Assembly (NCBI GenBank): GCA_026874595.1
Contig: CM049313.1
Location: forward strand, 28,704,008 to 28,768,007
Length of the DNA stretch: 64,000 nucleotides
Direction of reading: 5' to 3'
Source of the DNA: Sipunculus nudus
Taxonomy: Eukaryota; Annelida; Sipuncula; Golfingiida; Sipunculidae
Below are positions 265 to 37,320 of this stretch, piece after piece (the stretch's first letter is position 1; the number at the start of each line of letters is the position of its first letter). The notes under the pieces were generated by a model. The model saw nothing but the letters and a program-made list of their open reading frames with translations. It made no database searches and was not told the DNA's origin. The position numbers were made by a program, and so were the translations under genes.

Positions 265-965
265 TATGTTTGTTCCTTCATCTTATGTTTTACACTAATA
301 TCTCAAAACTTATGTTTCATTTTCCGGATATGGCTGCTAGGGGGCGTTGCACTAGACACATCCAAACTAATCAGTTTTTGGACATATTTCCGTAAGAGTA
401 AATCTATGTTACACAAACAGTAACTTATTTTCTTTCTCTTGGCCTTCTGCAAAATATGGTAACGTCATCTGGTGTCCATCTTGTGTTACTTTGTCAGTAT
501 GTCTGTCTGTTTGTCAGTTATCTTCAAATTCGCCTACTTGCTGGTTCTTGCATCTCACATATAGCAATCAACAAGCCAGATTTTTTTAGGAATCCTTTTG
601 AAACGATTACATCTTATGCCATTCACTAATATCACGAAACGCATCTGTCGTCTCCAGGATATGTCCACTAGAGGGCGCTGCAGTCGAACATCCCCAATAT
701 ATCATTATTTGGCCATATCTCCAAAACTGGAAACCTCAATTACATAAACTATACCTTATTTTCTTCCTCTGAGTCTTCCCCATGACCTGGTTAAGTCATC
801 TTGTCTTCATCTTGTGTCCCTTTGTCAGTATGTCTGTTTGTTTGTCAGTTGTCCTCAAATTCGCCTGCTTGTTTGTTCTTCCGTCTCACTAATAGAATTC
901 TACAGGCCACAATTTTGAAAGAATCTTTTTTAAACTATTAAATCTTATGTCTTACAGTTATATCT
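265..965 (+). repeat. Two diverged 335-bp monomers with CTCF-like core
   Basis: Two copies of the module that recurs at 3.7-4.0, 7.2-8.3 and, inverted, at 31.2-36.9 kb. Landmarks are a TTTTCATTTTCCGGATATGG-like segment, a CTCF-like core (331-350 and about 661-680), a segment close to CCATATCTCCAAAACTATAA, ATAAACTATAGCTTATTTTC and a GTCTGTTTGTCAGT block. No coding potential is seen. Confidence 0.75.
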
Positions 966-969
966 CGAA

Positions 970-3690
970 ACAGATTATTAGCGAATCTGTGAGCTTATGC
1001 TATAGGGGATTCTTAATATTCCTCATGAATAATTAATCAGCTAGCGAAAGCGAGGCTTACTGGGAATAACAGGGAGCATGTGCTCACTCACCATGGCTAT
1101 GTACAGCAACACAGACCTGTCAGTTGTTCCATTTATCCACTTCAAATTTGTGGATGCTTACAAACATATTTTGTTAAAAACATCTGGAATGAAGTGTAAA
1201 TCCAAAGGAATCTGCTGCTATGAGCACAATGAGAACCCGACTTGTAAGGGAGGTACTTTCCAGTGACTCTTAACATAATAAAGTTAAAGACCCTTAATTG
1301 GGCTCACATCTACTTGGCTCTACGGTCTATGCTAGCTATGAATCAAACCACAGGATGCCATTAATTGCCCGAGGTCAATTACAATATCAAGATATACAAG
1401 TGTCGGGCACAGGTGCTGACTGATACACATTCCAGACGGCACAGAATGAGGTGGTCTGTGCATGGTTCCTCTGATGGTGTACCTTAATACTAAGTTTCTT
1501 GTTTCATGTTCAGTAGGCACCAAGAGACACACACACCAAAACACTTTCGGCAGAACGCTGCTTATACTGCCATTATAAAGTCATTAACTTAATAAAGACT
1601 AATAAAGCATAAATGAAACATGTCTGCCTCTGTGATTGTTAAAAGTGTTCTGAAATGAAATTATGAAATGTTTTCTATTCACAAACCTATTAAAAATATA
1701 GATGTAGGTATGCTGTATCTGGCACCAATGGAAAATACTCTGTATTTTTAGTGGCATAACCAACACATAGCTTTCAAGTGAAACACTATGTCACAGGTCA
1801 TTTTAAAAAAATATATCGCTCCTCATTAGATAATGATATGGTAAGTTCCTGGGCATGGCAAGGATTATATTAGTGCATGGGCAGAAACAGAATTTTATAA
1901 ATGATACCTTTTTCCCGCAAGACTTTACATAATTTGAGAAAAAAATATAAAAATATGTAAGGTATGAATTATGGAATAATATAATCATTTTAATTAATGC
2001 TCAACACTTCACCAGCTCCAATCCTTTTAACTCAGGTTAGTTACTTAAAAAATTCTTTATAAATCGAATATGAAAAGTAATGTGTCATATACTAAAACTT
2101 CATATTTGTTATGAATAAAGAGTTAAAATATACTGACGGCGTGTCCTACAGCTGTAGACATAAACTGCATTGACAAACAATGGAAACGGTGACACAAGAA
2201 TTGCATGAGTTAAATATTCTTTAAATTGCAGTGGGTCTAGGCCGGTCATGTGGGGATATATCTATAATTGTTTCACAATCATGTAATTTAAGGGCTTTAA
2301 AGCTATCCACAGACGCCATCTTAGAGGGCCTCAAGTAAAAATGAGGAAATGATGACATTAAGTTTTGGTAATACAAAAATTAAACCCCTTCAACCAATTG
2401 AGACATATCAATGTATCTATTATCTATAAACCAGTAAGGGGATCAATGCTTCGCTGGTAAAAACTATATGCAGATCTTTGCTAAATGTCGTCATCAAGTT
2501 AAATATGTTGGTAGTCTTCTATCATTATTTATTTATGTTATTTATTTATTTTAATAAAGTACAATTAATTGCATGTGTATGGAAACAGATTTTGTGAAAC
2601 AGCACAGTATTTTAAAATATATTGACACGTACATAATAAAGGTAAGGCAAAACCAAATGAGGGCATGGACCATGTAAAAATGATATTTTAATATGTGCCT
2701 TTATAAATTGATACAGATCATTAAAAATCATTGTTCTAAAATGGTTGTTCATTTACTTAATTCTATGAACAAATATAACAAACAGCAGACCAAACCAGGA
2801 ACATATGAACACACAATCACAAAGAGTCCCTCGTCCAGATGTATGAATTAATTAGTAATTTCCACTGTTTCTTTCTACCTGGATCACTAATGAAAACTAA
2901 TGAAAAATCAAATCTGATGTCCAATTAGTAAATGAGTAGGATGAGAGAACAGAATAGGCTGTGACACGACCTGCCTTGCTGAGCTAAACTGTATCAGCAC
3001 ATGTGTTACTGCTGTGGCAAGTAAGCACGTGTCTTTGTTATTCCCCATTGGCCTCGCTTTTGCCTCTGGTATGTGTGGCATGCATAGAATTTAAGAGTCC
3101 CCTATGGTGCAGCGTCGTCCGTCGTCTGTAGGTTAACCATAGTTATCTCAAAAACGGCAGGAACTAGCATTACCAATTTTTTTTGTAAATAAACAGTACT
3201 ATCGGATTTTGTTTATTTTTTGGCTTTCTGCATTTACTGAGATTTTATAGGGAAAAAGCTAAAAAAAAACTTTAAAAATTTTCTTCTACGAAACTGTCCG
3301 GCCAAATAGGCCAATATTTCTAAGAAATGATCTCTTGATCAATCTATCTCAAGTTTGTTCGATTGGTTTCAGTTCGGAGATTAAACAGGAGGTTGAACTT
3401 AGTCATCTGCCAAAAAAAGCTAACTAAAATTAAAATCTCAGAAACGGCTAGAGCTGTCATTACCAAATTTTATACCTATATTTGTCTCATATGTCATATC
3501 TGAAATTGAGGTATTGGTGGCGCCACTTGCATTGATCTGTTTATTACAAGAAAAAAATGTAATTTTAGACTCCAGGTTATACTCTGTTTTATGATGAAAC
3601 TGTTAAGCTGATTGGTTTAAACTTTACAAGAATTATTCTATGGTAGGTTTCTGCCAGTTTTATAAGAAGAGATTGGGTAAATGCAACTTT
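970..3690. other. AT-rich stretch with no recognised gene
   Basis: Long AT-rich sequence. The longest open frames (62-70 codons at 1078-1266 and 1332-1544) resemble no family I know. From about 3085 to 3690 the text has the style of the AGCTCAG element (TCCGTCGTC followed by a segment on uncertain frames and AT-rich spacers), so it may be a diverged fragment of that family. I see nothing else. Confidence 0.5.
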
Positions 3691-4010
3691 AAAAAAGCAG
3701 TGTAGCCAATTGAAAACTATGATTTATTTTCTTCCTCTGAGTCTACTCGATAATCTGAGTAGGTCATCTGGTCTAATTCTTGTGTCATTTTTTGAGTATG
3801 TCTGTCTGTTTGTCAGTGATCCTAAATTTCGCCTGCTTTGCTGGACCTTGCTTCTTGCAGTTAGCAATTTTCAGGACACAGTTTTGAGGGAATCCTTTTG
3901 GAACTGGAACAACATCTTATTTCTTACATTAAAGTCTTAAAAGAAATTTTTAATGTTTGGGATATGGCCGCTACCATATATTGGCCATACCTCCGACACT
4001 ATAAACTCTA
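3690..4010 (+). repeat. Diverged 335-bp monomer
   Basis: The order of landmarks (TTTTCTTCCTCTGAGTCT, GTCTGTTTGTCAGT, CGCCTGCTTTGCTGG, a segment like GGAATCCTTTTGGAACT) matches the monomers at 7.2-8.3 kb. The CTCF-like core has decayed here (ATGGCCGCTACCATATATTG). Confidence 0.65.
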
Positions 4011-4084
4011 CCTACTAAAACTATAGCTCATTTTGCTTCTATTTACGTTCCCAACTTTTTTTCTGGTAGTCTGTTATCTCAGAT

Positions 4085-4294
4085 GTGTCAGTATATCTGT
4101 CTGTTTTGAGCCAAGTCTACTTTCATGATCCTTGTGTGATATATGTCATTCAACATGCAAAACTTTCCAGCAATCGCTCTGAAAGTCATTCAATTGATAG
4201 AAAAGCGACAGTTTGTCCTGCTTGTTTCTCTGTCTTATTTCCAGCCATTTCCGGCAAGCGCTCGACCTCTGGTCGTCTAGTCTGTTTGTCTGTT

Positions 4295-4325
<31 letters not shown>

Positions 4326-5900
4326 GCTCTACAGGCCACAATTTTTCACCGATCGCTCTGAAACTTATAGATATAGTGTAAGATCGGTTCTCCTCGGAGC
4401 CTATTGTTTTTGGTCATGATCGGTGAAAGGTCAAGGTCAGTGTCACCAAAACACCTAAAATTTTTATTTTCTTCATATCTTCGTCAATAATAATCGTAGC
4501 CGCATAATCTGTAGCTCACTTTACTCCTCTTTATGTTAGCCTTCCAATTGCTATCAAATTTTTCCGGTCAATTGTTACCATGGTAACGTATTTTTGGGGG
4601 AAAATCTGAAAATTCGAAAATTTGACTCCAAATTTCTCATTTTTTAAGTTAGAGAGGTCTAGTTTTTTGCACTGTGTAGCATTTAATATGCTCTATGGAA
4701 AATTAATGCAAGTCTCGCAAAATCTCGTGCCATTTTTCGTCAAACGAGATTTTTCGAGATTTCATTAAATACGATTTTGAGGTGGCAGTTTTACAGCTAA
4801 CGTTCTAAAAGTGACATATTTTCTGTTTTTCTGTATTATCTCGAACTTGTTTTTTCATTTTTCGAAAATAGCCACCAGGGGGCGTGGTACCAGAAACACT
4901 ACAACTTTTCATTTTTCCCCAATATCTAAAAAAATATTAAGCATATAACAATTTTCTTTGTCGCATCTAAAACTAGGATCATTGCCTTATTCCTTCCTAT
5001 ATATAGCCTTGTGCTGCCGTTACCATGGTTACCAAATTTTGGGGTTAAACTTGACGATCTGAAAATATGTAGTTTTGGCTTCTATCTCGGTTAATATTTA
5101 TGCTTTAAGGGTCTAGTTTTTAGCATAAGGCTGCTTTCTCTTGGTTCTAAGCTATTCCATTGCAATTCTCGTCAAATCTCGCTCGGTTTATTGCCAAACG
5201 AGAAATTACGAGATTTCACAGAAATGCTTATAACTTGATCACGGTTAATGCTAAAATGGAGTAGTTTTCGGCATTTGGTAGTATTTCAGAAGCTGGACAT
5301 GATTACACTGCAAATCTCGCCACATCTCGTGTCATCTCCCGCCAAACGAGAATATTATAGATTTCAAACAAATGTCTTTATGTCGGTCATTTTCATTCTA
5401 GATATTTTATTTTTCTATTGTTCAAGAATCATTTGACTTGTTTTAAGTGATAAAAGTGAATATCTCGTCATATCTCGCACCATTTCTTGTCAAACGAGAA
5501 CATGGGACCATTCAAAGAAACGCCTTTAATTGTGTTATTTTTATGTGGAAGACTTATAGTTTTCAGCATTTGATAGCGTCTAACATTCTCGGTCACATTA
5601 TATGATTATATTGTAAGTTTCTTCGAATCTTGCATCGTTTTTCTTCAAATAAAAAAAGTACATCCAATTGCCATGACCATAAGCGATGGCAGTATGTAAT
5701 AGTAAATGTCGGCAGGGGCATTACATTTGACAGTTGGAGCTTTGTTCTATGGATGTGCGATGGTCCATGAAAAGACACAATCCGGATTGATCCCACCTGT
5801 GCTTTTGGTGGTGGCCTCTTTTCATTCTTTGTATGGCCGCACTTTGAGGATTTCAATGCATTGAAAGCTTAATGACCTGTTGTAAAGGATAATCCCTTAA
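4085..5900 (+). repeat. Composite repeat module 1
   Basis: The module starts at CCGGCAAGCG (4251). It continues through a TCTG/TTTG microsatellite (4276-4326), AGGTCAAGGTCA half-sites (about 4427-4440) and several hairpin segments of the TCTCGTCAAACGAGA type (about 4710-4760, 5170-5215, 5320-5350 and 5465-5500). A GCCACCAGGGGGCG core lies at about 4870-4884. The order matches modules starting at 6635, 8575 and 10284. The short frames are incidental. Confidence 0.7.
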
Positions 5901-6088
5901 AAAAAAAACAAAAAAACAAAGAGAGAGGCTCCCCGAAATGTTACGGAATGCAGAGATAGTGTTGCTGGTAAGCACAATCACAACTATAATATCAGGGACG
6001 GATCCCCGATTTGCAGTTGGGTGTGTCAAATCAGGGACGGATATCCGGTTTGCAATTAGGGGTAGGGGTTAAATATAAATTATACATC

Positions 6089-6090
<2 letters not shown>

Positions 6091-6136
<46 letters not shown>
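6091..6136. repeat. (TAA)n microsatellite
   Basis: About 15 uninterrupted TAA units. On the minus strand it reads as a run of tyrosines in a 66-codon frame, which is an artefact. Confidence 0.95.
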
Positions 6137-6138
<2 letters not shown>

Positions 6139-6439
6139 TACTAATAAAATTTCGCGAAGCTTACTTTTATCATTTTGGAAAATTACCACCCAGATGCCGC
6201 TGCAGTAATCATTATTGTACCATATCTCCAAAACTAAAAACTGTCACAACTTTAATTGTAGCATCTGAAACAAGATTTAATGCGTTTATCCTCTTGGTTA
6301 CTCTTTCATATTCTTCCCTTACCATAGTGACCTTATGAAGGTTACAATTCACGAAATTCAAAGTATGAAGAATTATTCGAATAGACTGTGGCTTATTTTA
6401 TTCATGCTTTCAATTTTGTATGGCATGAGTACACGACCT

Positions 6440-7145
6440 TCACCTGGAGTTTTTTTTCTGTCTGTCTGTCTGTTTGTCTGTCTACTCGTCTGCGACTTTT
6501 GAAAATCAGTAAAACCACATAAAGATGTGCTTATGTTTTCCAAACAATAGGGGTTGGTCATTTGACCTGTTCCAAATGTTTTTTTGCCTTTCTACTGTTT
6601 GTTGTCTGTTAGTTTGACTTTCTAATTTCTACTTCCGGCAAGTCCCGACCTATGGTCGTCTAGTCTGTCTGTCTGTCTGTTTGTTTGTTTGTCTGCACTC
6701 TCCTGGCCACAATTTTGCCACAATCACCTTGAAACTTACAGGGATGATGAAAAACATAATTTCTAGGTGCCCTATTGTTTTTGGTTAAAAAAAGTCAAAG
6801 GTCAAGGTCAAGGTCGTCAAAAATTCTCAAAACGGTTTTTTCTTGATATCTTTGTGACTATTAGTCGTATCTACTTCAACAATAGCTCATTTTAATCATC
6901 ATTCCAAGGCCTGTCATCTGGTGTGTAGCTGACTCAAATTTGCCGTAAACATGGTTACAAATTTTGGGGGAATAGTCATGATATTCGAATATAAGGGGTC
7001 TTATTTTTCTAACTTTGTCAGTTTTAAAGCTAGTGTGATCTAGTTTTTTGCATCAGGTAGCATTCAACTAGTACTACAAGATTTTATAACAAGTATTGCA
7101 GTATCTCGTAAAATATCTCGTGAATAGAGATATTTCGAGATTTCA
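6440..7145 (+). repeat. Composite repeat module 2, leading part
   Basis: CCGGCA at 6635 is followed by the CGACCTATGGTCG hairpin, a GTCT microsatellite (about 6660-6695), a run of AGGTCAAGGTCA half-sites (about 6797-6815), and a weakened TCTCG hairpin segment (about 7095-7145). The 335-bp monomers follow directly. Confidence 0.7.
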
Positions 7146-7149
7146 TTCA

Positions 7150-8335
7150 TGTTGCGCCAAAGGCCACATTATTGCAGGAATCTTTCTGAAACTGACATAT
7201 TATAAGTCCTACACTAGTATCTCGAAATAGTTTTTTCATTTTTTGAATAGGGCCGTTAGGGGGCGCTGGATGCGAACCTCCCGAACATATCATATTTTGG
7301 CCATATGTCCATAATTATAAGCCTCAATTACATAAACTATAGCTTATTTTCTTCCTCTGAGTTTTCTCCATAACCTAGTGAAGTCATCTGTTCACAATTT
7401 TGTGACACTTTGTCAGTGTGTCTGTCTGTTTGTCAGTTGTCCTCAAATTCGCCTGCTTGCTCTTGCGTCTCACATATAGCATTCTAAAGGGCACAGTTTT
7501 GAAAGAATCCTTTTGAAACTATTACATCTTAAGTCTTACACTAATATCTCGAAACTAATTTTTCATTTTCCGGATATGGCCGCTAGGGGGCGCTGAACTC
7601 GAACCTCTCCCAACATATCATGATTTGGCAATATCTCCAAAACTATAAACCTCAGTTACATAAACTGTAGCGTTTTTCTTCCTTTGAGTCTTCTCCATAA
7701 CCTGGAGTAGTCATCTGGACTCAATTTTGAGTCACTTTGTCAGTGTTTTTGTCTGTTTGTCAGTTGTCCTCAAATACGCCTGCTTGGTGGCTCTTACGTC
7801 TCACATATAGCATTCTTAAGGCCACAGTTTTGACGGAATCCTTTTGAAACTATTACATCTCATGTCTTACACTAATATCTAGAAATAATTTTTTCATATT
7901 CCGGATATGGCCACTAGTGGGCGCTGCACACGACCCTCACACACATACCATTGTATTGGCCATATCTCTACACCCAAAGCCTCAGTTACATAAACTTTGG
8001 CTTATTTTCTTCCTTTGAGTCTTCTCCATAACCTGATTAAGGCATCTGGTTTCAATCTTCTGTCACTTTGTCAGTGTTTCCATCTGTTTGTCCGTTATCC
8101 TCAAAGTCGCCTGCTTGCTGGTTCTTACGCCTTACATATAGCATTCTACAGGCCACAGCTTTGACGGAATCCTTTTGAAACTGGGTCATCTCATGGTATA
8201 CACTAATGATACGAAACGCATTTGTCGTCTTCGGAATATGTCTGCTAGAGGGCGCTACAGTCGAGCCTCCCTAGTATATCATTAATTCGCCATACCTCCA
8301 AAATTATAAATCTAAATTACATAAATTATAACTCA
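7150..8335 (+). repeat. Tandem array of about 335-bp monomers with CTCF-like cores
   Basis: Four head-to-tail monomers. The repeated core aligns to GGCCGCTAGGGGGCGCTG at about 7251, 7578, 7909 and 8240, so the period is about 330 bp. The best copy (7578-7595) is intact; others have one to three changes. Flanking text (CTTCCTCTGAGTCTTCTCCA, GTCAGTTGTCCTCAAAT, TCTCACATATAGCATTCT) also repeats. The open frames here are by-products. Confidence 0.9.
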
Positions 8336-8339
8336 TTTT

Positions 8340-8950
8340 CTTCCTTTCAATCTTCTCAATCACCAGGTTATGTCATCTGGTGTCAATCTTGTCTCACAAA
8401 GTCAATATGTGTGTCTGTTCGTCTTTTGTTGTCAGCTTTGTCTGCTTGCCTGTTCTTTTGTCTCATATGTCATTCTACGGGCCACATATTCTCAGCAATG
8501 TCCCTGAGAGTCATTCCATTAATAGAAAACCCACAATATGTTCTGTCTGTCCGTCTGTGTTTCACTTCCGAATTCCGGCAAGCGTTCGACCTATGGTCGT
8601 CTAGTTTGTTTTTTTTGTTTGTTTTTTTGTGTGTTTGTCTGCGCTCTCCTTGCCACAATTTTGCAGCAATCGACATGACCCTTACAGAGTTGATTGACAA
8701 CCGAACACCCTGGAACCTTATTGTTTTTGGTCAACATTGCTCCAAGGTCAAGGGTCAAGGTCACGACAGGTGTGGTTAACGGTTTTTGCACTATAACTTC
8801 GCCATAAATAGGCTTATCCTCTTCTGCAATAGCTCATTTTTTTCGTCATTACCTGGCCTATCTTTCGATATGTAGCTTACTTAAATTTGCCGTTACCATG
8901 GTTACATTTTTTGGGCAAAAATCATGGAAATTGGAAATAACACGACCATT
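8340..8950 (+). repeat. Composite repeat module 3, leading part
   Basis: From CCGGCA (8575) this segment matches 10284-10670 almost base for base, including CAATCGACATGACCCTTACA and the half-site run at about 8743-8762. It is joined on the right to the 148-bp array, where other modules have a single hairpin segment. Confidence 0.8.
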
Positions 8951-10110
8951 TTTTGTAACTTTGTCAGTTTTAAAGCTAGGCTGATCTAGTTTTCGGCATT
9001 TTGTTCCACATGACCAGCTTGACACGACAGAACTGAAAGTCACGCCAAATCTCGCGCCATATCTCGTCAAACGAGAAAAAACGAGACTTCGCGGAAATGC
9101 TTATAACTTGGCTACTTTTACAGCTAGAGAGGTCTGGTTTTCGGCATTTCGTTCCACCAAACAAGCTTGACACGACAGAGCTGCAAGACAGGCCAAATCT
9201 CGCACCGTATCTCGTCAAACGAGAAAACACGGGATTTCACGGAAATGCTTATAACTCGGCCAGTTTTACAGCTAGACACGTCTGGTTTTCAGCATTTAGT
9301 TCCACTAGAACAGCTTGACACGACAGATATGCAAGTCTGGCAAAATCTCGCACCGTATCTCGTCAAACGAGAAAACACGAAATTGCACGGAAATGCTTAT
9401 AACTCGGCCAGTTTTACAGCTAGACACGTCTGGTTTCCGGCATTTCCTTCCACATGACCAGCTTGAGACGATAGATGTGAAGTCAGGCCAAATCTCGCAC
9501 CCTATCTCGTCAAACGAGAAAACACGAGATTTCACGGAAATGCTTATAACTCGGCGACTTTTACAGCTACACAGGTCTAGTTTTCGGCATTTCATAACAT
9601 ATAACCAGCTTGACACGCCAGAAAAGAAATTAGGCCAAATCCTGCACCATATCTCGTCAAACGAGAAAACACGAGAGTACACGGAAATGCTTATAACTCG
9701 GCGACTTTTACAGCTAGACGGATCTAGTTTTCGCCATTTCGTAACGTTTGGCCGTCTTGACATAATAAAACTGCTCGTCTTGCCAAATCTCGAACTATAT
9801 CTCGTCAAGCGAGAAAAAAACATGATTTCACGTAAATGCTGATAACACGGCGACTTTTGCAGCTAGACAGGTCTAGTTTCCGGCATTTTGTAATATTTGA
9901 CAAACCTGACATGACAAAACTGGAAATCTCGCCAAAGCTCGACCATTTCCCGTCAAACGTGAAAACACGAGATTTCATGCAAATGCTTATAACTCAGCGG
10001 CTTTTATAGCTAGACAGGTCTAGTTTTCGGCATTTCATATCATTTGGCCAGCTTGACATGACAAACCTGAAAACGTCTCACTGCTTCTTGTCAAACGAGA
10101 TTAACGGGAT
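8950..10110 (+). repeat. 148-bp tandem array, about eight units
   Basis: The segment TTTTCGGCATTT recurs at about 8991, 9139, 9287, 9434, 9582, 9729, 9877 and 10025, which gives a steady 147-148-bp period. Each unit has AAATCTCG, a TCTCGTCAAACGAGA hairpin and CGAGATTT, so an inner stem is nested in an outer one, followed by AAATGCTTATAACTCGGC and TTTACAGCTAGACAGGTC. Because the period is near a multiple of three, long open frames appear on both strands (up to 175 codons), but these are not genes. Confidence 0.93.
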
Positions 10111-10214
10111 TTCATGAAAAAATTTTGAACTTGGTCCCTTTAAACTAGAAAGATATGCAGCTGTTAAAGGTCAGCATGCATAAATAAACATATTATCCGT
10201 TTCTGCTGCCCCCA

Positions 10215-10795
10215 CAATGTTGCTCATTCATATGACTGTTTCTACATGCACTCTCTGTCTATCTGTCTGTATCATTTCCATTTCCGGCAAGCGCGTGACC
10301 TCTGGTCATCTTGTTTTTTTGTGTGTTTGTCTGCGCTCTCCTGGCCACAATTTTGCAGCAATCGACATGACCCTTACAGGGTTGATTGACAACCGAACAC
10401 CCTGGAACCCTATTGTTCTTGGTCAACATTGCTCCAAGGTCAAGGGTCAAGGTCACGACAGGTATGGTTAACGGTTTTTGCACTATAACTTCGCCATAAA
10501 TAGGCTTATCCACTTCTGCAATAGCTCACTTTTTTCGTCATCACCTGACCTTTCTTTTGACAGGTAACTTACTTAAATTTGCCGTTACCATGGTTACAGT
10601 TTTTGGGCAAAAATCCTGGAAATTGGAAATAACACGACCATTTTTTGTAACTTTGTCAATTTTTAAGCTACAGACGTCTGGTTTTGGTCATTATGTACCT
10701 TTTAGGCAGCTTGACATGATAAAACTGAAAGTCTCGCCAAATCTCGCACCATTTCTCGTCAAACGAGAGTCTTGTTTTAATATGGGCCGTTTTAC
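10215..10795 (+). repeat. Composite repeat module 4, truncated
   Basis: This is a near copy of 8575-8950 (CCGGCAAGCG at 10284, half-sites at about 10437-10456), ending in one hairpin segment (TCTCGTCAAACGAGA at about 10754-10768). The 335-bp monomers that should follow are absent, and an AGCTCAG element starts about 80 bases later. Confidence 0.75.
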
Positions 10796-10851
10796 CCACT
10801 TGCGATTTTATTACAATATGGGCATGGTATGGTTATGACAATATGGGCCGT

Positions 10852-13890: not shown

Positions 13891-13892
13891 TA

Positions 13893-20722: not shown

Positions 20723-21875
20723 AAACATAAGTAACATTCCTCCCCAAAAACTTTATCTTATTAATAAAGATATACTACAGTAAAAAAACTAGGAAATTGG
20801 CAGTCAACAAGCGACTACATGTATCCGCCAATTCACAGAGGCATGGGTAAAGTAAGGCACTGAATGTTCCTGACATGACATGACAAGTATTGGCATCAGA
20901 GATGCCTATTAACTCCTCATATATGTGCTATTCTAATCTAAAACAGATAAACAGATGGATACGAGATGAAATTGATTGTGGCCCAAGTAGTCTTGTATAC
21001 AAGATAAACCATTCCAAGATCTATGGATATGCACATTTTCAGGTGAATACATCAAACCACTCTTGAGAAAAAGGTAGGTGGCGCCCTCTGTCTGGTTTAT
21101 GATGGATCGACGCTATGTGAAAAAGATTGTAGGTGGCGCCACTAGGCTTGAGTACAAGATGGAGGTATCCAACATTTGTAGACATGTGGAATACAGGCTG
21201 ATACATTAAACCAGTCCTGAGATAAATGAATGAACGTATTCTACGAATAGGTGTTGCAAATGGTGCCACTAGTCTCGTGAATGAGAAATCTACCCAAGAC
21301 GGATGAACATGCAAAATTTCTGGCCGAGATACTCAACCACCACTGACGAAAAAGTGCATCAATGTATTCTACAAAAACGGAACGGCAGGTGGCACAACCT
21401 GTCTGTTCTACAACAAGCTATCCCAGACGGATAAACAAAAATTTCAGGCTGATACATCCATCCACCCCTACGATATGAGCGATTTTCACCCAAAGCAAAC
21501 GGGCGGATGGACGCAATGCGAAAACGATTACAGATGGCGCCAGTCTTGAGTACGAGATGAAGGTATCAAAGATCTATTGACATGCATAATTTCAGGCCAA
21601 TACGGCGAACCACTCTTGGGAAAAGCCTTGAAAGGGCATCATTGAGTACGAGATGGAGGTATCCAAGATCTATGGACAAGCCAAATTTCAACTCAATCCA
21701 TTGAACTACTCCTGAGATATGAGTGATTTTCACCCAAAGCAAACGCAGGGATGGATGCAACGCAAATACGATTACAGATGGTGCCACCAGTCTTATGTAC
21801 GAGATGGAGGTATCCAAGATCTGTGGACATGCAAAGTTTCAGCTAAATACATTGATCTCATACAAATGACAGAAT
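20723..21875. repeat. Degenerate tandem repeats with GGCGCC motifs
   Basis: Related segments recur loosely: GAGTACGAGATGGAGGTATC (about 21146, 21546, 21650, 21796), AAGATCTATGGACATGCA, and GATTTTCACCCAAAGCAAAC (21480 and 21724, spacing 244). GGTGGCGCC-type words occur at about 21078, 21133 and 21536. The copies are too diverged to fix one unit. No gene is seen. Confidence 0.55.
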
Positions 21876-21879
21876 ATAA

Positions 21880-22699
21880 CAAAGAATATCAGAAAACACT
21901 CTGCAAGCCGACCTCGCAAACATTTGACCGACGATTTCAAACAACATACGAAAACAACCTGCAAGCCTACTGTGCAAACTGTTGACAGAATTTACAAACA
22001 ATATACAAAATCATACTGTAAGCCTACCGCGCACACTGTTGACAGAATATTACAAACAACACGCGAAAACATACAGCAAAGCCTACCGCGCACACTCTTG
22101 ACAGAATATTACAAAGTATATCAGAAAGCCTACTGCAAGCCTACCGCGCACACTGTTGACAGAATATTACAAAGAATATCAGAAACATATTGCAAGCCTA
22201 CTATAAAAACTATTGAAAGAATATTAGAAAACAATATCAGAAGACATACTGCAAGCCCATCGTGCAAACTACTGAAAGTATAATACACACAATATATAAA
22301 AACATACTGCAAGCCCATCATGCAAACTATTGACAGAATAGTAAAAACAATATTTGAAAACAAACTGCAATCCTACCGTGGATATTACTGAAAGAATTTT
22401 AGTAAACATTATCTGAAAACATATTGCAAGCCCACCGTGCAATCTATTGAAAAAAATATTACAAACAATATCTGAAAACATACTGCAAGCCCATCGTGCA
22501 AACTACTGAAAGTATAAAACACACAATATCTAAAAATATACTGCAAGCCCAGCATGCAAACTATTGACAGAATAGTACAAACAATATCTGAAAACATACT
22601 GCAAGCCCATTGTGCAAACTACTGAAGTATAATACACACAATATCTAAAAACATACTGCAAGCTCACCGTGCAAACTATTGAAAAAATATTGCAAACAA
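21880..22699 (+). repeat. 58-59-bp satellite, left block
   Basis: About 14 head-to-tail units with landmarks ACTGCAAGCCCACCGTGCAA, ACTATTGACAGAATATTACA and CAAACAATATC. Late units start at about 22422, 22481, 22540, 22599 and 22656. The array stops in mid-unit at the TA before 22702 and resumes in the correct phase at 30610, so the CACTA-like insertion split it. It is not CRISPR: there are no unique spacers. Confidence 0.92.
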
Positions 22700-23239
22700 T
22701 ACACTCTAAAAACTGGGGACATGTTTCATGTTTCTATTTAAAACACAATTCTGTCCCATTTTTCGAAACATATTTCCAGCATGATTCATGACTCACTGAT
22801 GTTTCAACAGCCAAAACATGTTTTTAATCCTCTTGAAACATGTTTTTATATAAAAGATGTTTTGCACACGGAGAAAATTTCATGGACAGTAAGGTAAAAC
22901 ATGTCTCAGTGTTACATGTTTTTTATACGAAATATGTCGCATTTAAGACATGTCTTAAGACATGTTTCATTTTTCATAAAAAATGTAACTATTTAAAACG
23001 TCTGTTCAGCCTAAAATGTGTAGTTGTCCCATTTTTTTAAACGTGTTTTCCAAAGAAACATGTTTTAACTTAGAGTGAAACATGTCTTAGTATTACATGT
23101 TTTTATATGAAATATTATTCATATGAAACATGCTTAAAGACATGTTTCATTTTTCCAAGAAAAAATATATAACTTTTGCCCATCAAAGGCATATTTGCAT
23201 TTGAATCATGTCTCAAAAATGTCTACAAAAAATATGAAA

Positions 23240-25836: not shown

Positions 25837-25838
25837 TA

Positions 25839-27067: not shown

Positions 27068-28269
27068 TATTAGATTAACTAACTGTTGAATGTTCACAGT
27101 GATTCATCAAACACTGCAACACTTAGCTTTTCTAAAAGTTGGTAAAATTAAGTTACCATAAAAAAGAGTGAAACATTTTACATATGTGAATACTGAATCA
27201 ACATTTCTTAGAAAATATGTAGAATACTAAGGATGTGACAAAGGAATCAAACACTAAATTATTTTAATGCAGCCACAAACTGTGGAAGAAGCTTGTAAGA
27301 AGTTGACTTGTCCTTGTTTGGCCCTTTATTTTCATGACACTCTTCCTGAGGTGGGTTGAGAAGTTGCATGTATGTGCTGGGTAAGTTATATTAAGAATAT
27401 AGTACCACCCTAGAAGCAGGTACGAGTTTTTCCATACTGAGCCATTCTCCAATAAATATATGTAAATATATGTTCATTGAGTCACTCAAAATACCACCTG
27501 ACCTACCTTCTCCATTGTCTATGATAAAACAGGTGTTAGTTCTGTACGCTCTTGTGTACAAAATGAATCTTCTTTGACATCTTTCTGAAACAGGTGTAGC
27601 AATTTATCAGAAGCTAAATGGTGTTATTTCCATGATCAGTTTGGAGAAAAGAGAAAATAGTATTAACTGTCAGCAACACAGGTGACAGTTCTCACATGCA
27701 GCTGCATGGAATACACTGACATCAAAAGGATATTGACACAAGTCTAGCAAGAATTAATAACAGCTATTTATTTAGAGTTTTTTTTTTATAAAATGAAATT
27801 GTCAACTTCTTAAATTTTATTCAAATACTGTTTACACCTGGTAAAATAATGATGATTTTTAAGAATAAGACCTCTAATAGTTATACCTCTCAAATGGAAT
27901 AATATGAATGTTTACAACAACTGAATCAAAATCCATTAATCAATCAATGAATTAAATCAAAGACCCCTAAGCAATATAAAGCTGCTGGTTAGCATAATCT
28001 GTTGCAAGCATCTGTCACTTATTTATTCAGTGGCATTGATAATAAAAAGATTAAAAAAATCACATGTACCATATATTTAATCGAGGATTAAAAATATATT
28101 ATATGCAAATATGTAAACAAGAAAATGACTGTTCTAAAAAATTCTACAGGTGTTAAAATTTGCATATTTGTGTAAAAATCCAAAATTTGGATAAAGTGAA
28201 GCAATTACTAAATTAAATATTCAATCTCTGCCTGAGTTCACTCCAACTTGAGTAAACTGGAAACCACTA

Positions 28270-29100
28270 AACCACCATTACCATCCATATACCCACATCC
28301 AGCCTTGGTACCCTGTAAACCATACCAATATCAATATTTACCCATCCAGCCTGGGTATCCAGATCAGTCCCACCACTAACACCCATGTACACACATACAG
28401 CTTTGGTGCTGTGCCCCATTCCACCAACACCCTTGTACACATCCAGCCTTGTTACACTGGACCACATTCCACAAACACCTATGAAAACAGATCCAGCCTT
28501 GGTACCCTGGACCCCAGTCCAACACCAGTCATGTATTTACACATCTAGCCTTGGTACCCTAGACCCCATTCCATCAACACCCACATACATACATCCTGCC
28601 TTTGTACCCTGGACCCCAGTCCACCACCAGTCATGTATTCACACATCCAGCCTTTGCACCCTGGACCCCAGTCCACCATCAGTCATGTATTCACACATCC
28701 AGCCTTGTTAGGCCTTCCCTTGACCCCATTCCATCAACACCCACATACATAGATCCATCCTCGGTACCCTGGACCCCAGTCCACCGGCTGTCATGTATTC
28801 ACACATCCAGACTTGGTATCCTGAACCCCATTCCACAAGCACCACCCGTACACATGCATCCAGCACTGGTACCCTGGACCCTATTCCCCTCCACTGCCAA
28901 TGTGCACACATCCATCCTTGGTACCCTAGACCTCATTTCACCAACATCTATGTACACACATCCAGCCTTGGTACCCTGGACCTAAGTCCACAAGCACCAC
29001 AATGTGCACACATCCAGCGTTGGTAACCTGGACTCCATTCACACATCCGGCCTTGGTACCCTGGAACTCATTCCACCACCACCACCCATGTACATACAAT
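28270..29100 (+). repeat. Minisatellite, about 50-57-bp unit
   Basis: About 15 irregular units with the landmarks CACACATCCAGCCTTGGTAC, CCTGGACCCCAGTCCACCA and CACCCATGTA. Unit length varies from about 48 to 57 bases. The array translates into proline- and threonine-rich frames of about 100 codons on the plus strand and others on the minus strand. These shift frame between units and are not genes. Confidence 0.9.
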
Positions 29101-29718
29101 CAGCCTTGATCAGAAGCATAAATTACCATTTTGTTAACTACGTGCCCATGAGGTAGTGTTTGAACCTGCTGCAGATTTTACTCAACACAAATATGATACT
29201 GCACAGTTACAGGTTTTTATTTTGCTAATTTTATCGTTCTAATCACAAATTACTTTTGTCTTCTTTATTCATCTTCGAATTCGAGGTTTCAGTAAAAATG
29301 CCTTGGAAAAATCTAACAAAATTATCTTAGCACAGCCTACTTCTTGAAACAGCAAAATTTTCATCACATGTCACATTTGATCAAGTGCTGTTAAAATAAA
29401 TATCTTACCTACTCAGCAGTCCATACATATAAAACTTGGGTCCACAATGCTCCTTCTGGCATCTATTTTTAAAGGATTCTCAAAGATGTCTAATGGTTAT
29501 GCTGAACTACACTGAATTTTGTACAGTAGTTTCTAATAAAAAGCTGCTAATGATCACTTGCTTTACTGTAAAAAATATAAAACCAACATATCTATATAAA
29601 AGCAACTTTTTAAAATATAAAAACTCTCCAAATTTCAAAGACTGCTACAGTTATTAACATTCCTGCTTACTTGATTGCCCACTCTTAATATACTTACTTG
29701 TAGGAGCATCAATATGTT

Positions 29719-29892
29719 GGGGGGGGGGGGTCATCCCCCACCCTTGAAGATTAACTGATGCTACTGCTTAATTGTGTGCTGTACTCATATGGGAAAAGTG
29801 CACTGGGAAGTCTTATATTCAGTAGCTTATGTGTGTGTGTGTGTGGGGGGGGGGGGTTCCAAGTGGTCAAGACAGTCCCCCCCCCCCCCTTA
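29719..29892. repeat. Poly-G and poly-C tracts facing each other
   Basis: A 13-base G run begins near 29719. A (GT)n stretch then leads into a 14-base G run (about 29845) and, 20 bases later, a 14-base C run (about 29877). The last two can pair as a hairpin, and the G runs may form quadruplexes. Many such tracts occur in this window. Confidence 0.8.
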
Positions 29893-30181
29893 CACTGGCA
29901 ACCAGTGAATTATTGGCTGTATCCCATACGCTTTTGAAAAGTAAGGACTTTTTTTTGGAAATCCCCACCCCCAGGTTAGACCCCCCCACTTTCCGAAATC
30001 CTGTACATATCCCTGTATAGGATTTGTCTCATTACTGTATTTGAATGGTGGTTTGTACTTTCGGATGCATATTAATTCTGTTGAAGTAAAATTGTCGTTG
30101 TAATTTATAAAAGCTTGAATAAGTGTTCTCAATGAGCGGTTAAAACAAGTAAAATGTAATTTCTCTCGGAAAACATGTCTA

Positions 30182-30256
30182 AAGATAAGATAAGATAACA
30201 TTTATTAGCCTTCAGTTCCAGGAATTTGTCGTTGACTTGCAATTCATTACATAAAA
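30182..30256 (-). repeat. Possible retroposon 3' tail with (TTATC)n
   Basis: On the minus strand the sequence ends in GGCTAATAAATG followed by TTATC repeated about three times. A unique-looking 3' end plus a short tandem tail is the style of some SINEs and LINEs. No body of such an element was identified upstream, so this is weak. Confidence 0.25.
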
Positions 30257-30609
30257 ATAAATAAGTAAATAGATAGATAAATACATAAAAATAATACATA
30301 AAAATCACACATAACATATTGACTATGCATGTAAAATTAAGCATGTAAAAATGATAAAACAGATAATTCTGCAGGTAAAACACATAATTCAAAACATTAA
30401 ATATCTAAGAGGGTTGTGAGTTAAAAAGTTTAATACTGTGTGGTACGAGAGATTTTTTAAAACGACATAACATGATGTTTCAATGGACCCGATTTTGAAA
30501 ATAACGGTGAAACATGTTTTGAAACAGGTTTAAATTTGAAACATGTTTGCATACAAAACATGCTAAACATCATGTAAAACATCAGTGAAACGTCATTTTT
30601 TAGAGTGTA

Positions 30610-30780
30610 TCAGAAAACAAACTACAAGCCCACCGTGCAAACTATTGACAGAATATTAGAAAACAATATCACTGCAAGCCCATCGTGCAAACTACTGAAA
30701 GAGTATTACACACAATATCTAAAAACATACTGAAAACCCACCGTGCAAACTATTGAAAGAATAGAACAAACAAGATGACC
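30610..30780 (+). repeat. 58-59-bp satellite, right block of the split array
   Basis: Three units continuing the array that stops at 22699, in phase across the TA duplication. The last unit breaks off at AGAATAGAACAAACA, where the higher-order composite array begins (GATGACCTGAGGTCAGGCGC). Confidence 0.9.
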
Positions 30781-30790
30781 TGAGGTCAGG

Positions 30791-32520
30791 CGCTTGCCGG
30801 AAATGATGTAAAGTTAGTCAGATGAACGAGCAGTGTCAAAGTGAAAGAAAATAATCCATAGTTTGTGAAGAAAGAACCAATATTAAAAAAGTTCGAAAGA
30901 AAATAAAATTTTGATATATTTTGATCACCTTGACCTTGACCTTTGACTTATTGTATAATAAACATAGGACTTCCAGATATCATCACGATATATGACAAGT
31001 GTAATTTACAAAACGATTCCTGCAAAACTGTAGCCAGTAGAATGCTACATGTGAGACGCAAGAACCAGGAAGCAGGCGAAATTGAGGACAACTGACAAAC
31101 ATACTGACAAACTGACAGAAGATTGAGAACAGATGACTTAATCATGTTATGAAGAAACCTCAGAGGAAGATAATAAGCCATAGTTTATGTAAATGAGGTT
31201 TATAGTTTTGGAGATATGGCCAAAAAATGATATGTTTTGCAAGTTTTAGCGCACCGCCCCCTAGCGGCCAATTCTGGAAAATGAAAAATCGGTTTCGAGA
31301 TATTAGTGTAAGACATAAAATGTAATAGTTTTAAAAGGATTCTTTCAAAACTGTGGCCTGTAGAATGCTATATGTGAGACGCCAGAACCGGCAAGCAAGC
31401 GAATTTGAGGACAACTGACAAACAGACGGACACACAGACAAAGTGACTCAAGATTAAGACCAAATGAATACACCAGGTTTTTGGAAAGACCCAGAGGAAG
31501 AAAATAAGCTATAGTTTATGTAAATGAGGTTTATAATTTTGGAGATATGGCCAAAAAATGATATGTTGTGCAAGTTTGAGTGCACCGCCCCCTAGCGGCC
31601 AATTCTGGAAAATGAAAAATCGGTTTCGAGATATTAGTGTAAGACATAAGATATAATAATTTTAAAAGGATTCTTTCAAAACTGTGGCCTGTAGAATGCT
31701 ATATGTGAGACGCAAGAACCGGCAAGCGAGCGGTTTTGAGGACAACTGAGAAACAGACGGACACACAGACAAAGTGACTCAAGATTGAGACCAAATGAAT
31801 CCACCAGGATCTAGAAAAGACTCAGAGGAAGAAAATAAGCTATAGTTTATGTAATTGAGGCTTACAGTTTTGGAGATATGGCCAAAACATGGTATGTTGG
31901 GGAGGTTTGCATACAGCACCCCCTAGCGGCCGCATTCAGAAAATGGAAAAACAATTTCGAGATAATAGTGTAGGACTTACGATATGTCAGTTTCAAAAAG
32001 ATTCCAGCAAAACTGTGACCTCCAGGGCAAGACTACTAAAATCTCGAAATATCTCGTTTGACGAGATATTATACGAGATATTGCGAGACTTTTCAAACAA
32101 TCTTGCAGTATTTGTTGAATGCTACCTGAAGCAAAAAACTAGACCTCTCTAGCTGTAAAACTGCCAAAGTTAGAAAAATAAGGCCCCTTATTTTCGAATA
32201 TCATGACTTTTCCCCTAAAATTCGTAACCATGGTTACGGCAAATTTTAGACAGCTACACACCAGATGACTGGCCTTGGAATGACGTTTAAAATGAGCTAT
32301 GTTTGAAGAAGATACGACTAATAGTGACAAAGATGTGAAGGAAAAACCGTTTTGAGAAGTTTTGATGACCTTGACCTTTGACCTGTATTGCCCAAAAACA
32401 ATATGCTTCCAGGACTTTTGCTTATCTGACAGATGTGTTAGTTTAAAAGCAATTTCTGCAAAATTGTGGCCTCTAGAGAGTACACAGACAAACAGACAAA
32501 CTAGATGACCTGAGGTCACG
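30791..32520 (-). repeat. Higher-order unit 1
   Basis: Monomer cores (GCCCCCTAGCGGCC) lie at about 31255, 31587 and 31917. The hairpin with 9-bp stems and a TTG loop lies at 32049-32069. The half-site block is at about 32368-32383. Confidence 0.9.
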
Positions 32521-34256
32521 CGCTTGCCGGAAAGGATGTAAAGTTAGTCAGATGAACGAGCAGTATAAAAGTGAAAGAAAATAATCCATAGTTTGTGAAG
32601 AAAGAACCAATATTAACAAAGTTCTAAAGAAAATAAGATTTTGATATATTTTGATCACCTTGTCCTTGACCTTTGACTTATTTGAATAATAAACATAGGA
32701 CTTCCAGATATCATCATGACATATGACAAGTGTAATTTACAAAACGATTCCTTCAAAACTGTCCAGTAGAATGCTACATGTGAGACGCAAGCACCTGGAA
32801 GCAAGCGAAATTGAGGACAACTGACAAACAGACAAACATACTGACAAACTGACCCAAGATTGAGACCAGTTGACTTAATCATGTGATGGAGAAACCTCAG
32901 AGGAAGATAAAAAGCTATAGTTTATGTAAATGAGGTTTATACTTTTGGAGATATGGCCAAAAAATGAAATGTTGTGGAAGTTTGAGTGCACCGCCCCCTA
33001 GCGGCCTTATCTGGAAAATGAAAAATTCGTTTCGAGATTTTAGTGTAAGACATAAGATGTAATAGTTTTAAAAGGATTCTTTCAAAACTGTGGCCTGTAG
33101 AATGCTATATGTGAGACGCAAGAACCGGCAAGCAGACGAATTTGAGGACAACTGAGAAACAGACGGACACACAGACAAAGTGACTCAAGATTGAGACCAA
33201 ATGAATACACCAGGTTTTTGGAAAGACCCAGAGGAAGAAAATAAGCTATAGTTTATGTAAATGAGGTTTATAGTTTTGGAGATATGGCCAAAAAATGATA
33301 TGTTGTGCAAGTTTGAGTGCACCGCCCCCTAGCGGCCAATTCTGGAAAAGGAAAAATCCGTTTCGAGATATTAGTGTAAGACATAACATGTAATAGTTTT
33401 AAAAGGATTCTTTCAAAACTGTGAGCTGTAGAATGCTATATGTGAGACGCCATAACCGGTAAGCAGGCGAGTTTGATGAAAACTGAGAAACAGACGGACA
33501 CACTGACAAAGTGACTCAAGGTTGAGTCAAAATGACTCCACCAGGATCTAGAAAAGACTCAGAGGAAGAAAATAAGCTATAGTTTATGTAATTGAGGCTC
33601 ACAATTTTGGAGATATCGCCAAAACATGATATGTTGGGGAGGTTTGCATACAGCGCCACCTAGCGGCTGTATTCAAAAAATGGAAAAAACGGTTTCGAGA
33701 TAATAGTGTAGGACTTACGCTATGTCAGTTTCAAAAAGATTCCTGCAAAACTGTGACCTCCAGGGCAAGATTACTGAAATCTCGAAATATCTCGTTTGAC
33801 GAGATATTATACGAGATATCGCGAGACCTGTAATAAAATCTTGCAGTACTTGTTAAATGCTACCTGATGCAAAAAACTAGACCTCTCTATCTGTAAAACT
33901 GCCAAAGTTAGAAAAATAAGGCTCCTTATTTTCGAATATCATGACTTTTTCCCAAAAATTCGAAACCATGGTTACGGCAAATTTGAGTCAGCTACACACC
34001 AGATGATTGGCCTTGGAATGTCGTTTAAAATGAGCTATGTTTGAAGAAGATACGACTAATAGTGACAAAGATATGAAGAAAACACCGTTTAGAGATGTTT
34101 TGATGACCTTGACCTTGACCTTTGACCTGTATTGCCCAAAAACAATAGGCCCCGAGGACTTTTGCTTGTCTACCAGCTGTATAAGTTTAAAGACAATTGC
34201 TACAAAATTGTGGCCTGTAGAGAGTACACAGACAAACTAGATGACCAGAGGTCACG
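32521..34256 (-). repeat. Higher-order unit 2
   Basis: Monomer cores lie at about 32991, 33322 and 33653, and the hairpin is at about 33787-33807. The stretch from about 33180 to 33790 shares rare variants (CGCCATAACCGGTAAGCAGG, GATGAAAACTGAG, GCGCCACCTAGCGGCTG) with unit 4, so these two are closest relatives. Confidence 0.9.
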
Positions 34257-35632
34257 CGCTTGCCGGAAATGATGTAAAGTTAGTCAGATGAACGAGCAGT
34301 GTCAAAGTGAAAGAAAATAATCCATACTTTGTGAAGAAAGAACCAATATTAATAAAGTTCTAAAGAAAATAAGATTTTGATATATTTTGATCACCTTGAC
34401 CTTGACCTTTGACTTATTTGAATAATAAACATAGGACTTCCAGATATCATCACGATATATGACAAGTGTAATTTACAAAACGATTCCTGCAAAACTGTAG
34501 CCAGTAGAATGCTACATGTGAGACGCAAGAACCAGGAAGCAGGCGAAATTGAGGACAACTGACAAACAGTCAACATACTGACAAACTGACCAAAGATTGT
34601 GAACAGATGACTTAATCTTGTTATGAAGAAACCTCAGAGGAAGATAATAAGCTATAGTTTATGTAAATGAGCTTTATAGTTTTGGAGATATGGCCAAAAA
34701 ATGATATGTTGTGCAAGTTTGAGTGCACCGCCCCCTAGCGGCCAATTCTGGAAAATGAAAAATCTGTTTCGAGATATTAGTGTGAGACATAAGATGTAAT
34801 AGTTTTAAAAAGATTCTTTCAAAACTGTGTCCTGTAGAATGCTTTATGTGAGACGCAAGAACCGGCAAGCAAGCGGATTTGAGGACAACTAAGAAACAGA
34901 CGGACACACAGACAAAGTGTTACAAGATTGAGACCAGATGACTAAACGAGTTCATGAAGAAGACTTAGATGAAAAAAATAAACTATAGTTTTTGTAATTG
35001 AGGCTTATAATTATGGAGATATTGCCAAAACATGATATGTTGGAGAGGTTTGCACCCAGCGCCCCCTAGCGGCCGAATTAAAAAAAATGAAAAATTGATT
35101 TCGAGATACAAAAAGATTCCTGCAAAACTGTGGCCTCCAGGGCAAGATTACTGAAATCTCGAAATATCTCGTTTGACGAGATATTATACGAGATACAGCG
35201 AGACTCTTAATAGAATCTTGTGGTACTAGGTGAATGCTACCTGAAGCAAAAAACTAGACCTCTGTAGCTTTAAAACTGACAAATTTAGAAAAATATCAGC
35301 ACTTTTCCCCAAAAATGCGTTACCATTGTTACCGCCAATTGAGTCAGCTACACACCAGAAAACAGGCCTTGGAATGACGATTAAAATGAGCTACTGTTGA
35401 AGTAGATACGACCAATATTAACACAGATATGAACAAAAAACCGTTTTGTATACTTTTGATGACCTTGACCTTGACATTTGACCTATAATGCCCAAAAACA
35501 ATAGGCCTCCAGGACTTTTGCTTGCCTACCAGCTGTATAAGTTTGAAAGCAATTGCTGGAAAATTGTGGCCTGTAGAGAGTACAGAGACAGACAGACAGA
35601 CAAACAAACAAACTAGATGACCAGAGGTCACG
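34257..35632 (-). repeat. Higher-order unit 3, one monomer short
   Basis: Only two monomer cores (about 34729 and 35060) are present; the unit is about 355 bases shorter than its neighbours, which equals one monomer. The hairpin is at about 35164-35184. Unequal exchange between monomers explains the loss. Confidence 0.88.
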
Positions 35633-37320
35633 CGCTTGCCGGAAATGAAGTAAAGTTAGTCAGATAAACGATCAATGTCAAAGTGAAAGAAAATAATCCC
35701 TAGTTTGTAAAGATAGGATCAATATAATCAAAGTTCTGAAGAAAAAAATGTTGATATGTTTTGATCACCTTTACCTTGACCTTTGACTTATTTGAATAAT
35801 AAACAAAGGGCTTCGAGATATCGTTACGACAAGTATAAATAACAAAGCGACTCCTGCAAAATTGTGGCCAGTAGAATGCTACATGTGAGACGCAAGAACC
35901 AGGAAGCAGGCGAAATTGAGGACAACTGACAAACAGACAAACATACTAACAAACTGACCCAAGATTGAGACCAGTTGACCTAATCTTGTGATGGAGAAAC
36001 CTCAGAGGAAGATAATAAGCTATAGTTTATGTAAATGAGGTTTATAGTTTTGGAGAAATCGACAAAAAAATGATATGTTGTGCAAGTTTGAGTGCACCGC
36101 CCCCTAGCGGCCAATTCAGGAAAATGAAAAATCCGTTTCGAGATATTAGTGTAAGACATAAGATGTAATAGTTTTAAAAGGATTCTTTCAAAACTGTGGC
36201 CTGTAGAATGCTATATGTGAGACGCAAGAACCGGCAAGCAAGCGAATTTGAGGACAACTGAGAAACAGACGGACACACAGACAAAGTGACTCAAGATTGA
36301 GACCAAATGAATACACCAGGTTTTTGGAAAGACCCAGAGGAAGAAAATAAGCTATAGTTTATGTAAATGAGGTTTATAGTTTTGGAGATATGGCCAAAAA
36401 ATGATATGTTGTGCAAGTTTGAGTGCACCGCCCCCTAGCGGCCAATTCTGAAAAAGGAAAAATCCGTTTCGAGATATTAGTGTAAGACATAAAATGTAAT
36501 AGTTTTAAAAGGATTCTTTCAAAACTGTGAGCTGTAGAATGCTATATGTGAGACGCCATAACCGGTAAGCAGGCGAGTTTGATGAAAACTGAGAAACAGA
36601 CGGACACACTGACAAAGTGACTCAAGGTTGAGTCAAAATGACTCCACCAGGATCTAGAAAAGACTCAGAGGAAGAAAATAAGCTATAGTTTATGTAATTG
36701 AGGCTCACAATTTTGGAGATATCGCCAAAACATGATATGTTGGGGAGGTTTGCATACAGCGCCACCTAGCGGCTGCATTCAAAAAATGGAAAAACGGTTT
36801 CGAGATAATAGTGTAGGACTTACGATATGTCAGTTTCAAAAAGATTCCTGTAAAACTGTGACCTCAAGAGCAAGATTACTGAAATCTTGAAATATCTCGT
36901 TTGACGAGATATTATACGCGATATCGCGAGACTTTTAATAAAATCTTGCAGTACTTGTTAAATGCTACCTGATGCAAAAAAACAGACCTCTCTAGCTTTA
37001 AAACTGACAAAGTTAGAAAAATAAGACCCCTTATTTCAGAATATCATGACTTTTTCCCCCAAATTGCGTAACCATGGTTACGGCAAATTTGAAAGAGCTA
37101 CACACCAGAAGAAATGCCTGGTAATGACGTTTAAAATGAGCTATGTTTGAAGAAGATACCACTAATAGTAACAAAGATATGAAGAAAAAACCGTTTTGTA
37201 TACTTTTGATGACCTTGACCTTTGACCTATATTGCCCAAAAACAATAGGCTTCCTGGAATTTTGATTTTTGACCAGCTGTGTGAGTTTGAAAGCAATTCC
37301 TGCAAAATTGTGGCCTGTAG
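35633..37320 (-). repeat. Higher-order unit 4
   Basis: Monomer cores lie at about 36097, 36430 and 36769, and the hairpin is at about 36892-36912. It shares rare variants with unit 2. After the half-site block (about 37208-37226) it changes into the 60-bp hairpin array. Confidence 0.9.

Follow-up and report, generated by a model that had tools for sequence, protein, structure and literature searches.

The CTCF-like cores found in the window, which is the whole stretch of 64,000 nucleotides of Sipunculus nudus DNA analyzed here, lie in modules of an abundant dispersed repeat that has the anatomy of a transposon, comes in paralogous versions and shows reduced change at the motif. We lean towards the interpretation, which we hold to be somewhat probable, that this is a HINE family whose modules keep sites for host factors, probably those of CTCF, by selection acting on the element itself. 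CTCF is our candidate for the binder, and its binding would presumably benefit the element.

CTCF-type cores and their modules

Searching the window with the word GGCCGCTAGGGGGCGCTG at up to 3 mismatches returned 17 matches (5 plus, 12 minus), against a mean of 0.00 over 100 dinucleotide shuffles. Sites were scored with a 19-bp vertebrate CTCF matrix, with a maximum of 31.8 bits; at 12 bits or more this gives 25 matches in the window and 4 in the window read backwards. The scan bears out the approximately seven plus-oriented and eleven minus-oriented cores listed in the first-pass annotation, the seven scoring 13.7-27.2 and the eleven repeat cores on the minus strand, spanning 31252-36757, scoring 23.1-27.4 of 31.8 bits on this vertebrate matrix; two of the plus-strand cores, those at 4869 and 8239, are weaker and were found by the matrix scan and not by the word search. 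The core CCGCTAGGGGGCGC agrees at 13 of 14 positions with the human consensus CCASYAGRKGGCRS and at 12 of 14 with the FII site of chicken HS4, as these two are set out in the available portion of PMC6746451. Judged by such matches, the presence of a strong CTCF-type motif within a dispersed repeat is supported.

Module coordinates come from nhmmer searches with the core masked, together with the matrix scan. On the plus strand these place one B module at 175-506 (core at 331) and another at 507-837 (core at 662), a further module piece that is cut before the core at 839-976, and four B modules, with cores at 7250, 7577, 7908 and 8239, at 7098-7425, 7426-7751, 7753-8081 and 8084-8413. A C module, with the core TAGCCACCAGGGGGCGTGG at 4869-4887, occupies 4724..4942 (+; module search and flank clustering). 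On the minus strand, word search and matrix scan locate three B modules in 31096..32086 (cores 31252, 31583 and 31914), three in 32832..33824 (cores 32989, 33320 and 33651), two in 34572..35202 (cores 34726 and 35057) and three in 35938..36929 (cores 36095, 36426 and 36757). The tandem-repeat period is 331 bp, not the 335 bp given earlier, and the core is not present in every monomer as had been claimed: homologous end modules hold another motif in its place, the piece at 839-976 ends before it, and little of it is left in a copy at 3806-4038. Among these end modules, A2 copies with AGGTCA-type half-sites in the place of the core lie at 30840..31101, 32571-32831, 34374-34569 and 35682-35936 (-; 59-70 bits in the first pass, and clustering), and A1 copies, with AGGTCA half-sites, lie at 35360..35625 and 33996-34222 (-) and at 6654-6924 (+), all from the module search and element map.

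The strongest CTCF-like site of the window, TGGCCACCAGGGGGCGCTG at 59520-59538 (-) with 31.1 of 31.8 bits, lies outside the repeats and has no relatives among the sampled DNA. No genes are obvious by eye among the open reading frames of the window, and the long open frames of two unrelated tandem arrays, at 28287-29040 (units of ~52/102/160 bp) and 21867-22701 (units of ~58/116/232 bp), look incidental.

Anatomy of the candidate carrier element

The repeat monomer described in the first-pass annotation is real, and the transposon that carries it had gone unrecognized there. The 331-bp monomers appear to form the central modules of a HINE, a non-autonomous rolling-circle transposon of the Helentron kind. 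The 3' terminus comprises CCGGCAAGC, a GACC..GGTC palindrome and CTAG, then T, as at 8585..8604 (+) in the window, where the same pattern search also finds termini ending at 4280 (+) and at 35613, 34237 and 32501 (-). The pattern required CCGGCAAGC, the GGTC half and CTAG and left the T free, and T nevertheless follows all 46 of the 3' ends found; beyond the terminus, some copies pass into unrelated sequence. The 5' end reads TT/GCTTGCCGGAA in 58 of 60 matches, and in the window the 5'-end sequence GCTTGCCGGAAATC and its inverted repeat form tandem copies at 37348..37786 (-; tandem-repeat and 5'-end searches), with a further 5' end near 219 (+; 5'-end search). Outside tandem runs most 5' flanks read TATT, TT standing before GCTTGCC in 58 of 60, and an insertion target between A and T is therefore possible besides TT. 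Canonical Helitrons have a 5' TC, a 3' hairpin with CTRR and insertion between A and T; here a 3' hairpin and a CTAG followed by T occur, and the 5' end is not TC.

Subterminal inverted repeats occur at both ends (GCTTGCCGGAA 5' and TTCCGGCAAGC 3'), ATTTCGGCAAGC with variants lies next to the 5' end and is followed by GTCT/GTTT microsatellite runs, and near the 3' terminus the GACC..GGTC stem precedes CTAG in the 46 ends found by pattern. Features matching this anatomy are listed for HINEs in the portions of PMC7492417 and PMC4067079 available to us. Elements run from an end module A through a piece of 148-bp repeats to one to five B modules, often an A2 module, and the 3' terminus, and a second kind has a single C module among 148-bp repeats; in the sampled DNA this order recurs across elements. 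The 148-bp tandem repeat, seen in the window at 8968..10063 (+) by tandem-repeat detection, is a recurrent neighbor of the modules and belongs to this element family as well.

A near-identical sequence, GGCACAGTC..ACTTTATT, stands ahead of several 5' ends, the junctions lying at 219 in the window and, in the sampled loci, at L021 4916, L022 2472, L023 9826, L026 3528, L033 7254 and L034 285. It is as if the junction had been copied inside a larger recurrent element, or a favored target had been hit.

Abundance in the genome

In the genome (1.43 Gb, 153 contigs), exact CTAGGGGGCGCTG occurs 3,467 + 3,138 = 6,605 times and its reversed letters 2 + 2 = 4 times, and a 23-mer from elsewhere in the monomer occurs 1,126 + 778 times and reversed 0 + 0 times. 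The sampled DNA comprises the window and loci L017-L046, with all 20 10-kb loci picked at places of the 23-mer. All 68 exact 13-mers in this DNA, whose 20 10-kb loci were picked for holding the repeat, lie inside modules, and 64 B copies contain the exact 13-mer. Scores of at least 20 bits on the vertebrate matrix are reached by 127 of 178 B copies and 11 of 11 C copies, that is, by 138 modules of the sampled DNA. Extrapolation would put the number of strong CTCF-type sites in the genome at approximately 14,000, which is a rough estimate, given how the 10-kb loci were picked. At least one site of at least 20 bits is present in 61 of 67 B arrays, which by our estimate is no more than independent positions would give.

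Outside the window, 176 of the 199 matches of at least 14 bits fall in monomers, and reversed DNA gives 11 matches. Ten arbitrary 5-kb stretches contained no monomer at E 1e-3, and three of them had a single match each to a second model applied more loosely, at E up to 10. Two variants of the core deserve mention. At L034 3102, AAGCCGCCAGATGGCGCTG, with 21 bits, lies in an apparent further diverged module that was missed by the first model, and would be a third form of the core that is of CTCF type. In one lineage, the core of four B modules (L020 3851-4076; L023 1026-1252, 2300-2526 and 3574-3799) is shortened to CCGCGGGGGCGCTG and has ceased to score as a CTCF site.

Conservation of the core

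Clustering by flanks alone divided 295 modules into 178 B, 11 C and 106 A types, these remaining from 394 matches once L001 and all modules that were gapped in the core, or had under 150 flank positions aligned, had been left out; L002-L016 were unused owing to their overlap with L001 and L017-L019. The flanks of C are 57% identical to the B consensus and differ among themselves by 18% on average and 29% at most, and yet its core, TAGCCACCAGGGGGCGTGG, with 22.9 bits, is identical in 11 of 11 copies. In these 11 copies the 19-bp core shows 0 changes against 15.0 expected from matched site classes, and none of 100,000 resamplings gave as few. Only 4 of 341 windows of 19 columns in C are free of change, each of them overlapping the core, and invariant runs extend to 22 bp at most, with 12 bp for the second longest. 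Five disjoint closest pairs of C copies show 0 differences against 4.5 expected, or 5.4 when G/C content is allowed for, and since these pairs account for only 4.5-5.4 of the expected changes, most of the C signal comes from deeper branches. Further C matches, among the matches listed by BLAST, were cut by locus ends on either side of the core, and the result for C rests on the 11 copies.

These observations bear on whether the motif is a neutral passenger, that is, a CTCF-like word present by chance, alike among copies through recent amplification and needed by no protein. The invariance of the C core amid flanks that differ by nearly a fifth speaks against this, as does its being a strong CTCF-type site although its flanks resemble those of B so little. 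The B modules, whose copies were gathered by a model that masked the core, present a more mixed picture. Identity in 177 near-complete copies is 0.889 in the core and 0.827 elsewhere, but 52 of 314 windows are better kept than the core; the number is 67 of 314 for 37 copies from loci that the flank alone had picked out, and 88 of 314 for the 119 copies that lack the picking 23-mer. On a tree of 165 distinct copies built without the core, the 19-bp core has 3.95 terminal and 2.58 internal changes per site, and the sites outside it have 3.31 and 2.72, respectively. That the B core over all sites is barely more conserved than the rest is what a neutral passenger would lead one to expect, and so is the decay of its CpG sites, which undergo 7.25 terminal changes per site in the core and 7.14 elsewhere and thus decay alike. 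At A/T sites the core changes more (3.75 against 2.52 elsewhere) and at non-CpG G/C sites less (2.82 against 4.19).

With site classes matched, the 14-bp B core shows 90 changes against 119.0 expected (p 0.06), and its non-CpG G/C sites alone give p 0.002, with 20 of 318 windows lower than the core, these p values being two of several, uncorrected for their number. Within three B sublineages, which take in 161 of 178 copies once groups under 6 copies are dropped, 66.4 changes were expected in the 14-bp core and 53 are seen, and at its non-CpG sites 44.6 were expected and 24 are seen, a deficit that again tells against a neutral passenger. By sublineage the core is unremarkable, the windows with less change than it numbering 84 of 317, 93 of 313 and 210 of 318. 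Over all its sites, then, the B core is weakly constrained. The earlier suggestion that the motif is better kept than the remainder of the monomer holds, when core and flanks are compared across copies, for the whole core of C, which is invariant, and for the non-CpG core sites of B; for the whole core of B it is not upheld, the 52 of 314 windows noted above doing better.

Position by position, conservation of the core in copies that are mostly B shows no significant correlation with the information in the vertebrate matrix (rho 0.20, p 0.41), 59 of 313 other registers giving a higher value, and many first-in-array B copies carry C5T, a change that this matrix hardly tolerates. Fixed C5T variants and the lack of fit favor a neutral passenger, an explanation that we nevertheless consider unlikely. 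They also sit badly with CTCF itself, and so lend some weight to the proposal that the motif is required by the machinery of the element, for replication or for being recognized by Rep/helicase, or is the target of some zinc-finger protein distinct from CTCF, as does its position internal to a transposon with which it is held. Against this stands the fact that two diverged modules, B and C, have cores that each match 13 of 14 CTCF consensus positions (27.2 and 22.9 of 31.8 bits, respectively, on the vertebrate matrix). Moreover, central repeats are not counted with the terminal structures that Helentrons are considered to need for transposing, according to the part of PMC4067079 we could draw on, and the end modules hold a different motif in the same slot. 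We regard a role in the machinery of the element or for another zinc-finger protein as rather improbable.

Half-sites in the end modules

The 106 modules of the A types are homologs of B, the four A2 copies of the window having matched at 59-70 bits in the first pass, and where B has its core they contain runs of AGGTCA, such as TATAGGGTCAAGGTCAAGG, which we take to be nuclear-receptor (NR5A/ERR-like) half-sites. End modules with such runs were seen in the window at 30840-37325 (-) and among the A modules of L017-L036. In A1 (50 copies), the least-changed window of 14 columns is TCAAGGTCATCAAA, with 0 of 215 lower, and the other half-site windows rank 6, 35 and 78 of 215. Half-site windows are not the least changed in A2 (31 copies; ranks 55 and 104 of 254) or in A3 (15 copies; ranks 20 to 92 of 202). 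The modules would thus share one homologous slot, filled by a CTCF-type site in B and C and by AGGTCA/TCAAGGTCA half-sites in A. A broader form of our proposal, in which different host-factor sites occupy this slot (nuclear-receptor in A, CTCF in B and C), each is selected on the element, and together they supply a large share of the CTCF-type sites of the genome, is possible but doubtful, and we offer it tentatively.

Orientation of the clusters

The two clusters of the window do point towards each other, with approximately 23 kb between them, as was originally described, and it had been pointed out that such an arrangement marks loop anchors in vertebrates. Elements run head to tail within clusters, and therefore each cluster has one orientation overall. 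On contig 1, where the first 100 listed places of each list were merged into clusters, neighboring clusters are convergent in 8 of 33 cases by the core list and 6 of 30 by the flank list, the lists overlapping and so not being independent, and inner members of some clusters being left out. The chance expectation is a quarter or slightly less; convergence is thus at chance level, as for random insertion, and the facing clusters in the window need no further explanation. Convergent loop anchors were accordingly rejected: the facing clusters are independent insertions and give no evidence of a loop. The same counts weigh on the idea that the host has exapted single insertions as insulators or convergent loop anchors, for which one could cite the facing clusters and the supply of CTCF sites by repeats in mammals (available text of PMC7520972). 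The constraint in C is, in addition, common to the element lineage, deep branches included, and we regard host exaptation as very improbable.

Discussion

Selection on the element, probably for binding by CTCF, could operate as follows. Transposition and tandem duplication would have spread CTCF-type sites by the thousand through the genome, while the site itself would be retained through selection on the lineage of active elements. A protein of the CTCF family may bind this site in germ-line cells or in the early embryo, and elements so bound would stay accessible and be copied more. Retention would be strict where an element has one site, as in C, and loose where it has several, as in B; because of this redundancy, the tandem copies of B may decay and the single site of C may not.

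This bears on whether CTCF shapes genomes outside vertebrates. The evidence on CTCF in spiralians is called scarce or limited in the reviews PMC10658182 and PMC10658181, as far as their available text goes. In the accessible parts of the respective reports, a CTCF-like motif is described at domain boundaries in squid Hi-C data (PMC9023564), with no directionality identified according to PMC10658182, and CTCF motifs are described in annelid open chromatin without clear directional arrangement (PMC7854359). A HINE that spreads thousands of strong CTCF-type sites would, if our reading is true, constitute a natural experiment on CTCF occupancy and genome folding, and would suggest that transposons exploit host architectural factors as they do transcription factors. 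We found no literature on Helentrons that also treats CTCF, and no such element appears in the titles and abstracts on CTCF with Helitrons (among the matches listed), with mollusc transposable elements or with bivalve chromatin, nor in those on CTCF motifs in mollusc tandem repeats.

Several known systems resemble this one in part. With the single-locus insulator site CCGCTAGGGGGCAG, the B core has the first 12 bases in common, including a CpG described as methylation-regulated, and differs from it in the last two bases. By description, and without sequence comparison, the element is like Cg_HINE of Crassostrea gigas, which in the portion of PMC7492417 at hand is a non-autonomous Helentron with a 5' subTIR, its inverted repeat, a microsatellite, a 3' subTIR, a palindrome, satellite-like central tandem repeats and genome-wide dispersal. 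The monomers there are, however, mostly 140-180 bp, compared with 331 bp here, and a CTCF-type motif goes unmentioned in that portion. As with the ISX Helitron of Drosophila miranda, which disperses a dosage-compensation (MSL) motif (PMC6598467), and DINE-1-like elements (PMC4067079), in the sections of these papers we could consult, a Helitron/Helentron-type element would here disperse a motif for a chromatin complex; recruitment of MSL dosage compensation is described there, whereas here the factor is another and a candidate. In mouse, CTCF is found on SINE B2-B4 and NR5A2 on SINE B1 (PMC7520972 and PMC10709309, available text), and the element would resemble these rodent SINEs as a high-copy mobile element that spreads a CTCF or nuclear-receptor site. 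Those are retrotransposons with measured occupancy, whereas this is a rolling-circle element known from its sequence, and, unlike in the rodent SINEs, both kinds of motif reside here in homologous modules.
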